From the NCBI RefSeq assembly GCF_900172325.1, contig NZ_FWFR01000001.1:806001-870000 (forward strand): DNA of 64,000 bases, read 5' to 3'. A program made the position numbers and the translations under genes. Positions 3,356-33,479 of the stretch are shown one piece after another. Source of the DNA: Oceanibacterium hippocampi (GTDB lineage Bacteria; Pseudomonadota; Alphaproteobacteria; Sneathiellales; Sneathiellaceae). How positions within the stretch are numbered: position 1 is the stretch's first letter; every line of letters begins with the position of its first letter. Under the pieces are notes generated by a model that saw only the letters and a program-made list of their open reading frames with translations, made no database searches and had not been told where the DNA came from.

Positions 3356-4171
3356 ATGATCCGATCCTCCGATCGCCCGTCCGGCGCCCTTGCCGGCACC
3401 GTCAATTATGCCGACTGGCTTGGCCTCTGGACCCTGTACTGGAAGGAAGTGCAGCGCTTCCTCGTCGTGCCGATGCAGACGCTGGCCGCGCCGGTCATGA
3501 CGACGCTTCTGTTCTTCGCGATCTTCTCGCTCGCCATCGGTGGCGACGGACGGGGCGTTGCCGGCGTGCCGTTCGCGCATTTCATCGCGCCGGGGCTGCT
3601 GATGATGGCGCTGCTGCAGAACGCCTTCGCCAACAATGCCTCCTCGATCATGATCTCGAAGGTCCAGGGCAATATCGTCGACGTGCTGATGCCGCCGCTT
3701 TCTCCGGCCGAGCTGACCATCGGCTATGTCATGGCCGGCGTGACGCGCGGCCTCGTCGTCGCCGGCATGGTCGCGCTCGTCATGTGGCCACTCATCGGCC
3801 TCGGCTTCGTGGCGCCGCTGCTCGCCTTCTATTTCGCCTTCGCCGGTTCGCTGATGATGTCCCTGGTCGGCATTCTCACCGGCCTCTGGGCCGACAAGTT
3901 CGACCATCTGGCGACCATCACGAATTTCGTCGTCACGCCGCTGGCGCTGCTCTCGGGCACCTTCTATTCGATCGACCGCCTGCCGGAATCGGTACAGGGC
4001 ATCGCGCAGTACAATCCGATCTTCTTCCTGATCGACGGCTTTCGCCACGCCACGATCGGTGTCGGCGATGCCCATCCGCTGACCGGGGCGATCGCGGTCG
4101 GGGTGATCGACGCGGCGCTCGCGGTCTTCGTCTACCTGCTCGTCCGCCGAGGCTACAATCTGCGCGCCTGA
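3356..4171 (+). CDS. ABC-2 type transporter permease
   Basis: A 271-residue membrane protein of the ABC-2 permease family (YadH/NodJ-like), with six hydrophobic segments at roughly 35-60, 75-95, 120-145, 150-175, 185-205 and 235-262. The late segment with PLALLSGTFYSIDRLP and the following YNPIFFLIDGFRHA are typical of exporters of polysaccharide or drug-like molecules. An ATPase partner is needed, but none is adjacent: the neighbours are arsC on the other strand and argD downstream. It is therefore an orphan half here and the substrate cannot be inferred. Confidence 0.85.
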   Translation: MIRSSDRPSGALAGTVNYADWLGLWTLYWKEVQRFLVVPMQTLAAPVMTTLLFFAIFSLAIGGDGRGVAGVPFAHFIAPGLLMMALLQNAFANNASSIMISKVQGNIVDVLMPPLSPAELTIGYVMAGVTRGLVVAGMVALVMWPLIGLGFVAPLLAFYFAFAGSLMMSLVGILTGLWADKFDHLATITNFVVTPLALLSGTFYSIDRLPESVQGIAQYNPIFFLIDGFRHATIGVGDAHPLTGAIAVGVIDAALAVFVYLLVRRGYNLRA

Positions 4172-4178
4172 GCGCCGC

Positions 4179-4207
4179 TTGACAGGGGCCCGAAGCGCCC
4201 CGATAGT
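4179..4207 (+). promoter_or_regulatory. Sigma-70-type promoter for argD-argF
   Basis: A consensus -35 box TTGACA (4179-4184) is followed after exactly 17 bases by GATAGT (4202-4207). The predicted start of transcription, near 4214, leaves a leader of about 57 nt before the argD GTG. Confidence 0.7.
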
Positions 4208-4239
4208 GTCGCGCTTTCCGGCATTTCGGGGGGCTTGAG

Positions 4240-4269
4240 GGAGTCTCTCCGACCCGGCAGGGAGACTCC
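4240..4269 (+). promoter_or_regulatory. Leader hairpin covering the argD ribosome-binding site
   Basis: GGAGTCTC (4240-4247) and GAGACTCC (4262-4269) form a perfect 8-bp stem that can extend inward by a T-G and a C-G pair. The right arm contains part of the Shine-Dalgarno sequence (GGGAG, 4260-4264) of argD, whose GTG follows at 4271. If the RNA folds this way the site is masked, which suggests translational control of argD. Confidence 0.5.
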
Positions 4270-4270
4270 A

Positions 4271-5443
4271 GTGGAATCAGCCGTATTGCCCACCTATGCC
4301 CGCGCTCCGCTCTCGTTCGAACGGGGCGAGGGCGCCTATCTTTTCGACGAGGACGGCCGCCGCTATCTCGATTTCGGCGCCGGCATCGCCGTCTGCGCGC
4401 TCGGCCACGCGCATCCTCATCTGGTCGCGGCGCTGACCGAACAGGGCAGCAAGCTGTGGCACAACTCCAACGTGTTCCAGATTCCCGGCCAGGAAAAGCT
4501 CGCCCGACGGCTGACCGAGCGCTGCGCGCTGGACGCCGCCTTCTTCACGAATTCGGGCGTCGAGGCGCTCGAATGCGCGTTCAAGATCGCGCGCCGCTAC
4601 CAGTATGAGCAGGGCCGGCCGGAACGCTATCGCATCCTCACCTTCGACGGCGCCTTCCATGGCCGCACGCTCGCCGGCATCGCGGCCGGCGGCCAGGACA
4701 AGCTTCTGAAGGGCTTCGGGCCGAAGGTCGACGGCTTCGACCAGTCGCCGTTCGGCGACCTGGCGGCGGCCAAGGCGGCGATCGGGCCGGAAACCGCGGC
4801 GATCCTGGTCGAGCCAATCCAGGGCGAGGGCGGCATCCGGGTTGCCGATCCGGCCTTCCTGAAGGGCCTTCGTGCGCTCTGCGACGAGCACGACCTGCTG
4901 CTGATGTATGACGAGGTGCAGTGCGGCATGGGGCGCACGGGCAAGCTTTTCGCCCATGAATGGTCCGGCGCCGCGCCCGACGTCATGGCGCTTGCCAAGG
5001 GCATCGGCGGCGGCTTCCCGCTCGGCGCCTGTCTCGCGGTCGAGAAGGCGGCGAAGGTCATGACGCCCGGAACGCACGGGACCACCTATGGCGGCAACCC
5101 GCTGGCGATGGCGGTCGGCAACGCGGTTCTCGACGTCATGCTGGCCGACGGCTTCCTGGAGACCGTCGAGCGGCGCGCCAACCACCTTCGGCAGCAGCTG
5201 TCGGGCCTCGTCGACCGGCACCCGACGATCCTCGAGGAACTGCGCGGCCAGGGCCTGATGCTCGGCCTCAAATGCCGGGTGCCGAACGGCGACCTGGTGA
5301 CGGCGCTCCGCGAGCACGGGATGCTCGCGATCCCGGGCGGCGATAATGTGGTCCGCCTGATCCCGCCGCTGATCATCAACGAGAGCCACATCGCCGAGGC
5401 GCTGGAAACGCTCGATGAGGCGTGCCGGGAGCTGGAAGGGTGA
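4271..5443 (+). CDS. argD: Acetylornithine aminotransferase
   Basis: Class III PLP aminotransferase of 390 residues. It converts N-acetylglutamate semialdehyde and glutamate to N-acetylornithine in arginine synthesis and can also act in lysine synthesis as a succinyl-diaminopimelate transaminase. Family marks include [17 protein letters not shown], the PLP-phosphate segment TNSGVEALE, the Asp motif [13 protein letters not shown], and the Schiff-base Lys in [12 protein letters not shown]. The GTG at 4271 is chosen because GGGAG lies 6-10 bases upstream and the length fits. A TTG at 4235 is in frame but would put the leader hairpin inside the gene. It overlaps argF as GTGA, so the two are probably translated together. 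Confidence 0.95.
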
Positions 5444-6366
5444 GTGGTCCGAGGCACTTTCTCGATCTCAACCGTATCGACGCGCCGTCGCTACGCGGCA
5501 TCGTCGATACGGCGGCGACCGTGAAGCGCGCGCGCGCCGGCTTCTCGCAGGGCACGCGCGACGCCGGCCGGCCGCTCGACGGCAAGCTGCTGGCGATGAT
5601 CTTCGAGTTTCCCTCGACCCGGACCCGTGTCTCCTTCGACGTTGCCATGCGCCAACTCGGCGGCGAGACACTGATCCTGAAAAGCGACGAGATGCAGCTC
5701 GGCCGCGGCGAAACGGTGGCCGACACGGCGCGCGTCCTCTCGCGCTACGTCGACGCGATCATGATCCGCACCGACAGCCATGCGAAGCTGACCGAACTGG
5801 CCGAGCATGCGACGGTGCCGGTGATCAACGGCCTGACCGACCGCTCCCATCCCTGCCAGCTTATCGCCGACGTGATGACCTTCGAGGAACATCGCGGCGG
5901 GATCGCCGGCAAGGTTGTCACCTGGGCCGGCGACGGCAACAACATGGTCAATTCCTGGGTCCATGCCGCCGGCCGCTTCGATTTCGAGCTTCGCCTCGCC
6001 TGCCCGCCGGAATGCGCGCCCGATCCGCGCGCGCTCGATTGGGCGAAGGAGAACGGTGCCCGCGTCGTCGTCTATGACGACCCCTTCGCGGCGGTCGCCG
6101 GCGCCGATTGCGTGGTCACCGATACCTGGGTCTCGATGGGCGAGGAGGCGGCCAACCGCCACAACGCCCTCAAGCCCTATCAGGTCAACGAGGCGCTGAT
6201 GGCGGCGGCGGCCAGGGAAGCGATCTTCATGCATTGCCTGCCGGCACATCGCGGAGAGGAAGTGACCGATGCGGTCATGGACGGTCCGCGTTCGGTGGTC
6301 TTCGACGAGGCCGAGAACCGGTTGCATGCCCAGAAGGCGATCCTGCTGTACTGCCTCGACCGGTAA
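5440..6366 (+). CDS. argF: Ornithine carbamoyltransferase
   Basis: 308-residue anabolic ornithine carbamoyltransferase, which makes citrulline from ornithine and carbamoyl phosphate. The carbamoyl-phosphate motif STRTR (near residue 50), the HPCQLIAD segment, the ornithine-side DTWVSMG motif and HCLPAHRG are intact. The start is the GTG at 5440, inside the last codons of argD (GTGA overlap), with GGAAGGG just upstream. argD-argF followed by hslO is a common alphaproteobacterial order. Transcription is likely from the argD promoter. Confidence 0.96.
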
Positions 6367-17338: not shown

Positions 17339-17980
17339 TCAGCCGGTCGAGGTGCCGATCATGGTGAGCAGCTCGCGGCGCGTGGTCGGATCGTCGCGGA
17401 ACGCGCCCAGCATGCAGCTGGTCACCATCGAGACGCCGTCCTTGTGGACGCCGCGCGTCGACATGCACTGATGCTCGGATTCAAGGACGACCGCGACGCC
17501 GCGCGGCGTCAGCGCCTCCTGGATCGTCTGGGCGATCTGCGCGGTCAGCTTTTCCTGGATCTGCAGGCGCTTGGCAAAGGCGTCGACGACGCGGGCGAGC
17601 TTGGAGATACCGACCACCCGGTCGCTCGGCAGGTAGGCGACATGGGCCCGGCCGATGATCGGCAGCATGTGGTGCTCGCAATAACTCTCGAAGCGGATAT
17701 CGCGGAGCAGGATGACCTCGTCATAGCCTTCGACATCCTCGAAGGTCCGCTCCAGATAGGTGGCGGGATTCTGGTCGTAGCCGGCGAAGAATTCCTCGTA
17801 GGCGCGGACGACGCGGTCGGGCGTGCCGATCAGGCCTTCGCGGTTCGGGTCGTCGCCGGCCCAGCGCAGAAGCGTTCGAACGGCTTCCTCGGCCTGCTGC
17901 CGGCTCGGTCGTTTGATCGCGGTCGAGCCGCTTTCTGCGCTGCTTTCGGCCAGGGCCTGGGAATTGGGAGAATCCAACAC
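17339..17980 (-). CDS. folE: GTP cyclohydrolase I
   Basis: FolE converts GTP to 7,8-dihydroneopterin triphosphate, the first step of tetrahydrofolate (and queuosine-related) synthesis. About 213 residues; the zinc ligands are in [10 protein letters not shown] (Cys and His) and [11 protein letters not shown] (Cys), and the GTP-contact motif GISKLAR is present. I place the start at the GTG at 17978-17980, with AGGAG five bases upstream; the next codon, TTG, is an alternative at better spacing. The first 20 or so residues are low in similarity. The gene stands alone between trkH and apaG on the same strand. Confidence 0.95.
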
Positions 17981-18593: not shown

Positions 18594-19466
18594 TCAGCCG
18601 TCGCGCTCCGGAAGGGCGGCGTACCAGAGCTCGACCCGGCGGTTGGCCGGCTCGACCGCGCCATCCGCCGTCGCCACCCTCGGCCGGCTCTCGCCCAGCG
18701 CCTCGATCCGGATGCGGGCCGGGTCGGCACCGCGATCGCGGAGATAGTCGGCGACCGCCTCGGCCCGCTTCAGGCTGAGCCAGAAATTGTAGCTCGGCAA
18801 TCCGGCACTGTCGCTGTGGCCCTGGATCAGCAGCGTCCGGCCGTCGACCCCGGCGCCGCCGAGCGGCAGTTCATCGAGGTTGCGCATGGCGCCGGCGTCG
18901 AGCTCCCGGCTGTCGAAGTCGAAATGCACGAGACGCCGCGGCGTATCCGGTGTCGGCAGATGGGCGGTCGCCGGGCCGGCGGCGGTCAGGATCGCGGTCA
19001 GGCCGTCACGGCAATAGGCGATATCGGCGCTTTGCCAGTTCTCCTCCTGCTGCTCGATCCAGCAATCGAAGAGCACCTGGGCCCGCGCCGCGCCGCCCGG
19101 GTCGCGCTCGCGGGCGCCGCCGTCGAGCCAGCGCAGGAGGGTCTCGCGCCGGGCGGCGATCAGGGTCCGCTGGGCGGCCGGCAGACTCCAGTCGGCGAGC
19201 GCCTCCGGTCCCGGCCGCTGGCCGCTCGCCGCGCTCAGGCCCTTGGCCGCGAAATAGGCCTGGTCGGGCCAGTCCTGTTGTGCCAGTTCGAGTTCGGCGA
19301 AGGCGAGATACTCGCGCGCCAGCGCTGCGTCGAACCCACCTGCCGCATCGCCGCCGCCGGACGCGCTCCGGCGCAGCGCATCGATGTTGGCGGTGGTGCA
19401 GGCCCCGATGCCGAGGATCAGCACCAGGGCCAGTGCACTGCCCGTGAGGAGTTTCCGCGTTGCCAT
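18594..19466 (-). CDS. OmpA-family lipoprotein
   Basis: 290-residue outer-membrane-type lipoprotein. A signal peptide with lipobox LGIGAC puts the lipidated Cys at about residue 23. The N-terminal half (about 30-170) is helical and unassigned; the C-terminal 110 residues are an OmpA/MotB peptidoglycan-binding domain with VHFDFDSRELD, LLIQGHSDSAG and the closing NRRVELW, including the Asp and Arg that bind diaminopimelate. The protein probably tethers the outer membrane to the cell wall. Five Cys-free blocks are rich in Ala. No ribosome-site oddity is seen. Confidence 0.88.
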   Translation of the reverse strand: MATRKLLTGSALALVLILGIGACTTANIDALRRSASGGGDAAGGFDAALAREYLAFAELELAQQDWPDQAYFAAKGLSAASGQRPGPEALADWSLPAAQRTLIAARRETLLRWLDGGARERDPGGAARAQVLFDCWIEQQEENWQSADIAYCRDGLTAILTAAGPATAHLPTPDTPRRLVHFDFDSRELDAGAMRNLDELPLGGAGVDGRTLLIQGHSDSAGLPSYNFWLSLKRAEAVADYLRDRGADPARIRIEALGESRPRVATADGAVEPANRRVELWYAALPERDG

Positions 19467-19574
19467 GATCGAGCCTCCCGTCGTCGAACCGGGAGCGAAC
19501 GTCGCAGGACAACAGGGCGGTCTCGGGTCGCCTTCGTGGTTCTTTCGGGGCGGCGCGGGGACGAATTGTGGCGG

Positions 19575-26075: not shown

Positions 26076-29018
26076 ATGGCCTATACGCAGCATTTCGGCC
26101 TGCGCGACGCGCCTTTTGCCGCGTCCACGATGCGTCACAGCCTTCTGGCGCTCGATGCCAACGAGCGCCTCCGGCGATCGATCGGGCGAAGCCTGGCGCG
26201 TGCCGGGGCGATCTATCTTCTGGCCGGCGACAGCGCCGCCACCCGGACCGCGCTCCTCCAGGCGCTTGCCGAGGATCGCGACGGCGAATCCAGGCGGATC
26301 GTCCTGGATGCCGCCGGCATGGGGTTCGAGGACCTGGTGCACGAGGCGGCCCGCCTGCTCGATTTCCGTGCGCCGGGCAAGTCCGGCACCGACCAGGCGG
26401 CCCTGCTCGCCTTCATCATGGCCGAATGCGCGGCGATCCGGCCGCCGTTGATCCTGTTGAACAACGCCGATTGCGCCGCCGACGATCTCTTTCGCGGCCT
26501 CGCGCGGATCTTCCCGGCCAGTGGCCCGCGCGAACGCATGCCGCGCGTCGTTCTCGCCGGCGGCGACGCCTTTCCGGCCCGCTTCGAGGCCGCGGCGCCG
26601 GGCGACCTGCTGGCCCGCCGGGCGGAAACCTACACGATCGGCCCGCTGTCGATCGTCGAGGCCGAGGAGTTCATCGACAATTGTCTCGAGCAGGTCGGAC
26701 ATAGCAGCGAAGGCCTGTTCGAGCCGCAGGCGATCGTCCGTCTGACCGAGATCGGGGAAGGCCGGCCGGAGGCAATTGCCCGGCATGCCGAGCGGGGCCT
26801 CATTGCCGCCAGCGAGCGCGGTGCCCCGCGCGTCGGCGCCGAGCACATCGTGCCGGAACAGGTCGCCGTCCCGCTCCCTCCGGCGACGTCGCCCGCGCCG
26901 AAGGCGGAAGCCGCGCCTGCCGCGATACGCCCGGCGGCCGGCGACTTCCATCGTCCCGAGGATCGGCCGGGCCTTCCGCCACGGAAGCAACCGTTGCCGG
27001 CGAAACGACGGCGTGGTCTGCTGCTCGCCGCCACCATCCTGCCGCCGCTGGTCGTGGCCGGGCTGGTTCTGGCGGTTCTCACGCGGTCCGGATGGGACAT
27101 CGACAGGGTCGCGGGCCTGTTCCAGGGCAGCGGTTCGACCGCCGTCAACCCGAGTTCGGCCCAGCCGGCCGCCGACCAGGCGCCGGCACCGGCCGAGGCC
27201 GATCCGATGCCAGTCGGTACGGGGCTGGACGTGCCCATGCCCGATCCGGAGGAAGTGCTGCGCCTGCGTGCCGAGACCCTCGAGGGCGCGATCGACGATC
27301 TGACGGCCAATCTGGGCGTTGTCATCGGTGAGCGCGACGGACTGTCGGTCCGGCTGCGGACCGTCAAGGAAACCGAGCAGGCACTGCGCAGCGATCTCGA
27401 AGCCGCGCGTCAGCGCATCCGTGACCAGGCGGTGGCCTTCGGCACGACGCAGCGGCAGCTTGCCGAGGCAAGGTCGCGGCTCGCCGAAATGGAGAGCAGG
27501 CTGGCGAGCGTCGAAGCGGCCCGTGGCAGCGCGGCCGAGTTGGCCACGGGAGCGGAAAGCGACGCCCGCGCAGCGGCCCGCTCGCTCGCCGAGGCGAAGG
27601 CCGCGAACGATACGCTCCGGGCCGAGATCGGCACGCTGCGCGACGATCTGGACCGCCTGAAGACGGTCGCCGATACCGTGCCCGGCCTGAAGCGTGACCT
27701 GGCGCGGCAGAAAACCCTCTACGAACAGGCGGACGGCAAGATCGCGCGGCTCGAGCAGCAGCTTGCGACGGTCACGGCCGAACGGAACCGGATCATGGCG
27801 GCGGTCGCAGATCGCCCGGCCGCGGCGGTGGAAACGCCGGCCGCTGAACAGCAGATCGCCTCGCCGGCCGACCCGAAGAAGACCGAGCTTTCTCCCGAAG
27901 TCGATACGCTGCTGGCGCGCGCCGCGACCCTGGCCGAGAACCAGCAACTGACCGTGCCGCCGGGAAACAACGCGGTGGAAAGCTACAAGGCGGTCCTCGA
28001 ACAGGCGCCCGACAACGAGACCGCGCTCGCGGCACTCGACCGGCTGAAGTCGGATTTCCTGCTCTGGGGGCGTTCGGCGATGGCCCGCGGCGAGTACGAT
28101 GCGGCGCTCCGGCAGTACCGAAAGGCGTTGTTCGTCGATCCGCGAAACGACGAGGCGCTGGAGGCATTGAACAAGGCCCGCGAGAAGGCCGGCGTCGCAG
28201 GGGCGACGGTGACCGCGTCGGCCGATCCTACCGGGCTGGCGCGGCCCGAGACCGGGCGCGCCATGACGGCTGCCGGGAGCGGCGATCTCTCGACTCTCGG
28301 GGCCTGGCTTGCGACGGGCGGCGATGTCAACCAGCGTGACGGACGTGGCTGGACGCTCCTGATGCACGCGGCGGCGGAAGGCCAGACCGAGACCGTCGAC
28401 TGGCTGCTCGACCGGGGGGCCGAGCTCGGCCGGCGCGACGCGGATGGCCGGACTCCGTTGCTGCGCGCGGTCTGGGACGGCCGCTCTTCGGTGGTCGCCC
28501 TGCTGCTCGAGGCCGGTGCCGACGTCAATGCCCGCGATGGCGAGGGGCGAACCCCGCTTCAGGTCGCCGCGGCGCGCGGCTACGAGGCGATGCTCGGGCA
28601 ACTGGTCGCTGCCGGTGCCAACCTCAACAGCCGTGACCAGGATGGTCAGAGCCCGCTGATCGCCGCCGCCGTCAACGGCCATGTTTCGGCGGTCGCCACC
28701 CTCATCCGGGCCGGCGCGGATGTCAACGCGGCGGACGAGAACGGACGGACGGCCCTTCTCCAGGCGATTGCCCGCCGCCAGGAGCCGGCGGCCCGGCTGC
28801 TGCTCCAGGCCGGGGCCGAGATCGACCATGCGGACAGCACCGGCGAAACCGCGCTCATGGCTGCGGCGACGATGGGCGAGGCCGCGCTCGCCGAGGAGCT
28901 TCTGCGGCGCGGCGCCGATCCGACCCGGGTGAATGCCGGGGGTGCCAGTGCGGCCGATATTGCACTTCGCCACGGACGCATTACCCTTGCCCAGCGGATC
29001 GCCCGCGCCACCAACTGA
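26076..29018 (+). CDS. ExeA-like pseudo-ATPase, coiled-coil, ankyrin-repeat membrane protein
   Basis: A 980-residue multi-domain protein. Residues 1-260 follow the ExeA/GspA AAA ATPase (start YTQHFGLRDAPF), but Walker A reads GDSAATRT (51-58) without the GKT, and the Walker B position reads LILLNNAD (125-132) without the acidic pair, so ATP hydrolysis is unlikely. A Pro/Ala linker leads to one membrane helix (about 316-336). Beyond it lie a long coiled coil (about 391-575), a TPR-like helical pair (about 628-705) and six or seven ankyrin repeats (about 727-977). In ExeA the N-terminal part is cytoplasmic, so the coiled coil and ankyrins should be periplasmic. The role is unknown; an envelope scaffold is my inference. 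Confidence 0.85.
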   Translation: MAYTQHFGLRDAPFAASTMRHSLLALDANERLRRSIGRSLARAGAIYLLAGDSAATRTALLQALAEDRDGESRRIVLDAAGMGFEDLVHEAARLLDFRAPGKSGTDQAALLAFIMAECAAIRPPLILLNNADCAADDLFRGLARIFPASGPRERMPRVVLAGGDAFPARFEAAAPGDLLARRAETYTIGPLSIVEAEEFIDNCLEQVGHSSEGLFEPQAIVRLTEIGEGRPEAIARHAERGLIAASERGAPRVGAEHIVPEQVAVPLPPATSPAPKAEAAPAAIRPAAGDFHRPEDRPGLPPRKQPLPAKRRRGLLLAATILPPLVVAGLVLAVLTRSGWDIDRVAGLFQGSGSTAVNPSSAQPAADQAPAPAEADPMPVGTGLDVPMPDPEEVLRLRAETLEGAIDDLTANLGVVIGERDGLSVRLRTVKETEQALRSDLEAARQRIRDQAVAFGTTQRQLAEARSRLAEMESRLASVEAARGSAAELATGAESDARAAARSLAEAKAANDTLRAEIGTLRDDLDRLKTVADTVPGLKRDLARQKTLYEQADGKIARLEQQLATVTAERNRIMAAVADRPAAAVETPAAEQQIASPADPKKTELSPEVDTLLARAATLAENQQLTVPPGNNAVESYKAVLEQAPDNETALAALDRLKSDFLLWGRSAMARGEYDAALRQYRKALFVDPRNDEALEALNKAREKAGVAGATVTASADPTGLARPETGRAMTAAGSGDLSTLGAWLATGGDVNQRDGRGWTLLMHAAAEGQTETVDWLLDRGAELGRRDADGRTPLLRAVWDGRSSVVALLLEAGADVNARDGEGRTPLQVAAARGYEAMLGQLVAAGANLNSRDQDGQSPLIAAAVNGHVSAVATLIRAGADVNAADENGRTALLQAIARRQEPAARLLLQAGAEIDHADSTGETALMAAATMGEAALAEELLRRGADPTRVNAGGASAADIALRHGRITLAQRIARATN

Positions 29019-33266: not shown

Positions 33267-33479
33267 ATGACCCCAAGCCATTTCCCACGTCACCCGCTGG
33301 CAGACGACCCGATCCGGCAGGCTCTCGAGCGTGGCCGCGACCTGCATGCCCAGGCTGTTCGGGGCGGTGTCCGCCAGGTGCTCGACATCGTATCCAGCGC
33401 GCTCGCCGCATCGTTCCGCGTCAGCCGCTTGCGTCGCCGCTCGATTTCTCCGCGCGGCGAGTGCGTTGCCTGCGGATAA
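33267..33479 (+). CDS. Small protein divergent from lysR, 70 aa
   Basis: A short basic protein with a PRHPLADDPIRQALERGR start, an amphipathic helix and an Arg-rich end. It has an ATG with GGAA nine bases upstream. Short proteins of this style, divergent from LysR genes, recur in alphaproteobacteria, but I cannot name the family. Its last 59 bp overlap the end of the convergent enoyl-CoA hydratase gene, which lowers confidence. Confidence 0.4.
   Translation: MTPSHFPRHPLADDPIRQALERGRDLHAQAVRGGVRQVLDIVSSALAASFRVSRLRRRSISPRGECVACG

Follow-up and report, generated by a model that had tools for sequence, protein, structure and literature searches.

Oceanibacterium hippocampi encodes a member of a separate alphaproteobacterial family of proteins in which an ExeA-type AAA+ domain is joined to a transmembrane helix (TM), a TPR module and, in part of the family, ankyrin repeats, with the AAA+ domain occurring in both an intact and a catalytically deficient state. 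The gene lies in the window, the stretch of 64,000 nucleotides analysed here, and its product combines in one chain the parts that define the family: an ExeA-like domain, a TM and a TPR module with the signature LTxPxxxNA. In total we counted 57 members, the window protein included, of which 10 are intact and 47 deficient. A preliminary description of this DNA had raised the possibility of a separate family, which the survey supports.

Layout of the window protein

The open reading frame, the motifs and the domain order given in the preliminary description were all borne out on re-reading (Table 1). A frameshift or pseudogene was considered as a reading of the gene and rejected, since its 980 codons contain no stop and GC3 is 0.79–0.85 throughout, an even coding signal.

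Table 1. Features of the gene and its product (positions in the window).
Feature	Position	Strand	Basis
Gene for AAA+-like/TM/coiled-coil/TPR/ankyrin protein	26076..29018	+	980 aa ORF
ExeA/XrtA-ATPase-like AAA+ domain with lid, residues 3–260	26082..26855	+	TIGR03015; AlphaFold2 fold
Degenerate Walker A GDSAATRT (K to R), residues 51–58	26226..26249	+	Aligned motif tables
Degenerate Walker B LILLNNAD (DE to NN), residues 125–132	26448..26471	+	Aligned motif tables
Degenerate sensor-2 stretch GRPEAIA (usual form G-x-P-R-x-x-N)	26760..26780	+	Motif alignment
Single predicted membrane helix, residues 314–336	27015..27083	+	Hydropathy peak 2.47; KRRR
Coiled coil, residues about 396–580	27261..27815	+	Matches to coiled-coil families only; sequence
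TPR module with LTxPxxxNA signature, residues 608–704	27897..28187	+	Pfam; predicted helices
Ankyrin array of eight repeats (two of them end caps, the others full), residues 727–980	28254..29015	+	Pfam; AlphaFold2

Judged by profile and predicted fold, the ExeA/GspA likeness first described for the N-terminus is real, and weak at the level of sequence. The NCBIfam profile TIGR03015 (XrtA/PEP-CTERM-associated ATPase) matches residues 3–249 over nearly its full length with 27.4 bits and E 2e-6 (E 4.7e-5 when the whole protein is the query), a score that does not reach the curated cut-off of 324.5. With residues 1–275, Pfam returned no family at E up to 1, and a phmmer search of the PDB with residues 1–290 returned one match, to an unrelated enzyme at E 0.64. 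AlphaFold2, given a three-row alignment (A6; alignments A5 and A7 placed the Walker B strand of the window protein wrongly), predicted an AAA+ fold for the N-terminal domain with pLDDT 74.5 and pTM 0.70, residues 1–26 being poor; over the five models, mean pLDDT spanned 74.5 to 42.0, which is too coarse for active-site detail. In Foldseek and VIA-align comparisons the predicted domain groups with AAA+ proteins, and its VIA list is led by Cdc6/ORC, TnsC and MuB at Z 15–18, with a best Z of 18.1 for Cdc6. The region of residues 1–260 is thus predicted to have an AAA+ fold and not an unlike one. The ExeA-type label stands for the N-terminal domain, with the correction that the top profile is that of the XrtA-associated ATPase and not one specific to type II secretion.

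The catalytic residues said to be missing from the Walker A and Walker B motifs are indeed lost by comparison with 36 intact domains. Among 37 ExeA-like domains (44 matching loci minus duplicates and short matches; L034, a further locus, gave no match), GK[ST] and the Walker B aspartate are kept in all except the window protein. At sensor 2 its sequence reads GRPE, with PE where most of the 37 domains have PR. The window protein has neither of the Walker B acids and is also without the sensor-2 arginine and the glycine that would precede the Walker A lysine.

Outside the AAA+ domain only the stretch listed in Table 1 rises above the hydropathy threshold, with KRRR on its N side, and the predicted topology is N-in, with the C-terminal part in the periplasm. 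Pfam places the TPR at residues 666–704 and ankyrins from about residue 730, and the AlphaFold2 model of residues 598–980 (pLDDT 82.6) has eight ankyrin helix pairs, mostly with pLDDT over 85; the PDB matches listed for this predicted model are ankyrin proteins and designed ankyrins. Hydropathy, Pfam and AlphaFold2 agree with the single membrane helix, coiled coil and TPR-like helices of the preliminary description, and its ankyrins are present as well, although they number eight with the two end caps rather than six or seven. The long outside binding surface that it proposed is in line with the N-in prediction, which would place the TPR and ankyrin parts in the periplasm.

Intact and deficient relatives

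In a survey of 385 genomes of the class, the N-terminal domain was matched at E up to 0.001 in 26, its own included. The closest match after the window comes from the metagenome-assembled genome Plut_88856 (G147), in a protein with the same order of parts and intact GEAGCGKT and VLIVDEAQ motifs. Denitrobaculum tricleocarpae (G356) has a protein with matching part order and intact GEHGTGKT and VLFIDDAQ, and an uncultured Kiloniellaceae genome yielded a further intact member of equal architecture. A scan of genome contigs with residues 1–265 of the single protein found no relative; a scan with an alignment of TPR modules gave the named ones. Within the window's order the long protein occurs in 1 of 25 genomes, and no close relative of the window gene was found there. 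At a separate locus, L043 (1486–3393), an ExeA-like AAA domain and a phage integrase share one frame of 636 aa.

In f51, the taxonomic family of genome G368, the TPR module was matched at E up to 1e-8 in 55 of 82 genomes, with one match per genome. An ExeA-like domain lies in the same reading frame in 53 of these 55 regions; in the other two (L189 and L207), which were dropped, the contig ends ahead of the AAA part. Seven of the 53 readable orthologues have intact motifs: g261 holds five of them, g455 one and g457 one. The remaining 46 lack Walker A (41 in g52 and five in g464, g459, g458 and g157). Homologues thus do not always lack the GKT, and its absence does not define the family, an outcome that the preliminary description had itself named as going against its reading. 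The 10 intact proteins among the 57 members mostly share the architecture of the window protein and include those of Plut_88856, Denitrobaculum, Kiloniellaceae and f51 genera.

Counting the window protein among the 47 deficient ones, arginine stands at the position of the Walker A lysine in 45, proline in one and histidine in one. The Walker B aspartate position is occupied by glutamate in 26, aspartate in 20 and, in the window protein, asparagine, and the position after it is asparagine in 37 of the 47. Of the 47 rows, 36 retain the glycine ahead of the lost lysine, the window's not being among them. An alignable lid stretch is missing from all 46 deficient f51 proteins and from none of the 10 intact ones, and is kept in the window protein. 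Among the f51 proteins scanned with Pfam, AAA_22 was matched in all five deficient ones (E 6.7e-10 to 5.1e-7) and in the three intact ones with E 3.8e-18 or better.

These substitutions bear on whether the deficient proteins could bind nucleotide without hydrolysing it and act as cytoplasmic ATP/ADP sensors that signal to the periplasmic arm. Arginine for lysine in almost every deficient protein, an acidic residue at the Walker B aspartate position in 46 of 47 and the frequent asparagine that follows would all suit such a sensor. We nevertheless regard it as quite unlikely: the window protein has also lost the pre-lysine glycine, both Walker B acids and the sensor-2 arginine, and the f51 proteins that lost Walker A are without the lid, which in AAA+ proteins usually closes the nucleotide site.

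Between the AAA and TPR parts a TM over threshold is found in 55 of the 57 members, the other two falling just below, and the N side of the TM is basic in 50. The ankyrin C-terminus of the window protein is not universal in the family. By pattern, ankyrins are absent from the five deficient f51 rows outside g52, from L179 and from the short L047; Pfam, which found ankyrins in four of eight f51 proteins and none in the other four, agrees with the pattern. The G368 copy (L047 5757–7841) stops at 695 codons, without the ankyrins that its congener L161 has, perhaps through a frameshift. L214, which a contig end cuts, was used neither for the dN/dS pairs nor in the tree of TPR modules.

By itself the TPR module is common, being matched in 50 of 398 genomes of the phylum at E up to 1e-6, and none of 29 TPR-bearing loci besides the window's (a subset of the hits, with flanks of about 1.5 kb) has an ExeA domain; TPR likeness alone therefore does not amount to membership. 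Five weak TPR matches in the class (L215, L216, L218, L219 and L220) were rejected because they have no ExeA domain, and L217, the sixth locus of this set, yielded no row under the threshold. Two gammaproteobacterial Ser/Thr kinases (L120 4834–7458 and L121 4498–6846) carry TPR modules of the LTxPxxxNA kind after the kinase domain; they differ from the window protein in that the kinase replaces the AAA+ domain and no ankyrin family is listed for them. When plasmids were searched with a g52 protein, none of the 47 records obtained covered 80% of the query; the 25 listed match its C-terminal third only, many being annotated as ankyrin proteins.

Probable recurrence of loss, and constraint on the domain

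Inactivation has likely been recurrent in the family, with at least two losses, on the indirect argument that f51 holds intact and deficient orthologues at one match per genome and that the window belongs to another order than f51 and has retained the lid. In the tree built from the 37 AAA domains, the window joins the four other rows with a TPR module at an unstarred support of 79/92, at a place where long branches meet. In a tree of the TPR modules (56 rows) it stands with Plut_88856 and the Kiloniellaceae/Denitrobaculum pair, apart from f51, at weakly supported nodes (71/85 and 81/12). The TPR tree, whose key forks are weak, requires three state changes under parsimony, and AU tests rejected neither one common loss of all deficient proteins (p 0.060) nor the f51 losers as one clade (p 0.36). 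As 46 of 53 f51 orthologues are without Walker A in a family with one TPR match per genome, loss appears to be tolerated or favoured while the gene is retained.

The AAA domain of the window protein has an end branch of 3.78 in the AAA tree, compared with a median of 0.34. Its identity to the AAA domains of other members is 0.20–0.25, whereas those members share 0.30–0.36 among themselves; for the TPR module, identity is 0.31–0.36 for all such pairs, the window's included (these ranges exclude the near-identical Kiloniellaceae/Denitrobaculum pair and the row of the XrtA ATPase). Because AAA identity dropped while TPR identity held, the AAA domain of the window protein alone has accelerated.

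This very long branch, AAA identity that has fallen so far while TPR identity is still 0.31–0.35, and the lid that cannot be aligned in any deficient f51 protein could mean that the AAA+ domain is a decaying vestige in a protein that now depends on its membrane anchor and TPR/ankyrin arm alone. We consider such decay unlikely, since the window domain is predicted to keep the AAA+ fold in a gene of even GC3, the pre-lysine glycine is retained in most deficient rows (although not in the window's), and the AAA part is the most constrained part in g52. Median dN/dS in g52, where the domain is dead, is 0.31 for AAA, 0.42 for the C-terminus, 0.47 for TPR and 0.75 for the linker (the first 60 pairs to qualify, covering 36 of the 40 rows), values of which only the ranking is usable because they are Nei-Gojobori estimates at high GC, and in which the AAA part is the profile-matched stretch and so biased to conserved sequence. 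Ranked in the same way, the intact Kiloniellaceae/Denitrobaculum pair gives AAA 0.057, ANK 0.060 and TPR 0.094, with AAA and ANK both under tight constraint. Three intact g261 pairs give AAA 0.11, TPR 0.18 and linker 0.22; their C-terminus value of 0.55 may be elevated by the short L047. The dead AAA domain of g52 is relaxed, yet it is the most constrained part of the protein, a ranking obtained for g52.

Proposed role and genomic setting

We give an even chance to the proposal that the window protein descends from an AAA+ ATPase of the ExeA/XrtA type and serves as a bitopic scaffold in the inner membrane, positioning or coupling an envelope machine without ATP hydrolysis. The dead AAA+ domain would assemble in the cytoplasm, either as a homo-oligomer or with an intact ExeA-like partner, which is assumed; the coiled coil would extend partway across the periplasm; and envelope proteins would be docked there by the TPR/ankyrin arm. 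The protein could then position the envelope machine, or tie assembly of the machine to the state of the cytoplasm, with no ATP being hydrolysed. An envelope scaffold or regulator, as first suggested for this gene, remains the likely role in light of the fold, the motif loss and the predicted topology. Counting against a scaffold are the few neighbours that the window shares with the flanks of 17 other members, the fast rate of the window domain, which also fits decay, and the C-terminus being the least constrained part in the three intact g261 pairs.

ExeA and GspA resemble the window protein in having an N-terminal cytoplasmic AAA+ domain, a single TM and a periplasmic C-terminal part, according to excerpts of two sources (PMC4098917, PMC9239104). 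The cytoplasmic ATPase domain of ExeA is described in one excerpt as needed for complex formation and its periplasmic part as binding peptidoglycan, and the ExeA work cited there used ATP-binding mutations (PMC4098917). If ExeA itself needs its ATPase motifs, as this excerpt indicates, the dead proteins have to function in some other way. GspA and GspB vary, and some GspA proteins are without a periplasmic part, as stated in an excerpt of PMC9239104. Unlike ExeA and GspA, the window protein has no working ATPase motifs, and where ExeA has a peptidoglycan-binding domain it has TPR and ankyrin parts. By analogy, it may keep the assembly part of ExeA with a different outer part.

An ExeA-type domain with one TM could also belong to a GspA-like assembly factor for the secretin of the genome's type II secretion system. 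Secretin matches in the window genome lie in frames of 716, 478 and 237 aa, the largest of which we take to be of a size fitting GspD, and some kind of secretin was found in all four member genomes searched. Still, we hold this role to be highly improbable. PG_binding_1 (PF01471) is absent among the 25 of 29 Pfam families listed for the window protein, the other four having E 0.29 or more; T2SSB/GspB (PF16537) was matched in none of the four member genomes, though none of 14 controls matched either; Denitrobaculum has an intact member but its lone secretin match is in a frame of 484 aa; and the 716-aa secretin is on a different contig from the window gene. The tie to type II secretion through ExeA and the secretin, drawn in the preliminary description, is thus left with slight support.

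Export of exopolysaccharide or protein of the XrtA/PEP-CTERM kind is suggested by the best profile, which runs near end to end through the N-terminal domain, and by a divergent Poly_export gene about 1–3.5 kb from the family gene in six f51 genera (Pfam-confirmed in three). We think service to such a system very unlikely, because the window protein is far below the cut-off that a genuine TIGR03015 member reaches, because the genome has a separate, intact XrtA ATPase (C7; 351 aa, TIGR03015 score 357.5, above the cut-off) clustered with exosortase A and an XrtA polysaccharide deacetylase, and because the window neighbours scanned, a subset of the window genes, are of other kinds. Polysaccharide export genes lie divergently near the f51 family gene at L224, L223 (14323–14925) and L231 (5220–5816), and at L224 a second AAA_22 protein is divergent as well, the two occupying 5210–6046 and 3639–5156. 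In a g52 genome, a caspase-domain protein with MORN repeats (L225 6792–8567) adjoins a deficient family member convergently.

Upstream of the window gene is a divergent OmpR-type regulator. An amidase-family gene (PF01425; 29053–30408) starts 34 bases past its stop, and the two are perhaps on one transcript. When ORFs of 120 aa or more at 17501–38500 of the window were compared with those in the flanks of 17 other members, the only matches apart from the core gene were an ABC ATPase, which had many partners, an OmpA-domain ORF and a weak match near 33424 to one g52 flank. The OmpA-domain ORF (18597–19574, minus strand) matches an OmpA-family lipoprotein gene of Denitrobaculum with 36% identity over 115 residues. 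That lipoprotein gene shares the strand of the family gene in Denitrobaculum and Kiloniellaceae and sits at most about 325 bases upstream of it, but in the window the ORF is 6.5 kb away on the opposite strand; for this reason, and because OmpA domains are common, the shared gene carries little weight. The OmpA-family lipoprotein gene is about 310–325 bases upstream of the intact member at L119 (2971–3555) and L118 (2971–3555), with a phage capsid gene further out at L119.

For the proposed scaffold, yeast Sir3 offers a comparison, since its ORC-type AAA+-like domain is a structural part and its entry 3te6 is in the fold list of the window domain. Sir3 is not known to act as an ATPase, and it is a eukaryotic chromatin protein not known to have a membrane part or ankyrins. 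An abstract terms its domain an 'AAA+ ATPase-like domain'. Human CLPB/Skd3, as an excerpted source describes it, likewise has AAA+ and ankyrin repeats in one chain; unlike the window protein, it is an active disaggregase with N-terminal ankyrins and both parts in one compartment. Searches of open-licence papers yielded nothing recognisable that joins ExeA with ankyrins or has this architecture, and no ankyrin array on the outer face of the inner membrane that is fixed to a cytoplasmic AAA+ domain.

More broadly, we tentatively propose, with slightly less than even confidence, that ExeA-type motors have turned more than once, even within one bacterial family, into non-hydrolysing transmembrane scaffolds. 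The Walker A lysine would become arginine, the lid might be lost, selection would keep an AAA+ domain that organises a complex, and the periplasmic TPR/ankyrin arm would do the work. Intact, dead-with-lid and dead-without-lid AAA+ domains, attached to membrane and periplasmic parts of one kind, form a natural series in the family, and this series makes testable what an ExeA-type domain adds beyond ATP hydrolysis. The family would also add a bacterial membrane case to pseudo-AAA+ scaffolds such as Sir3.
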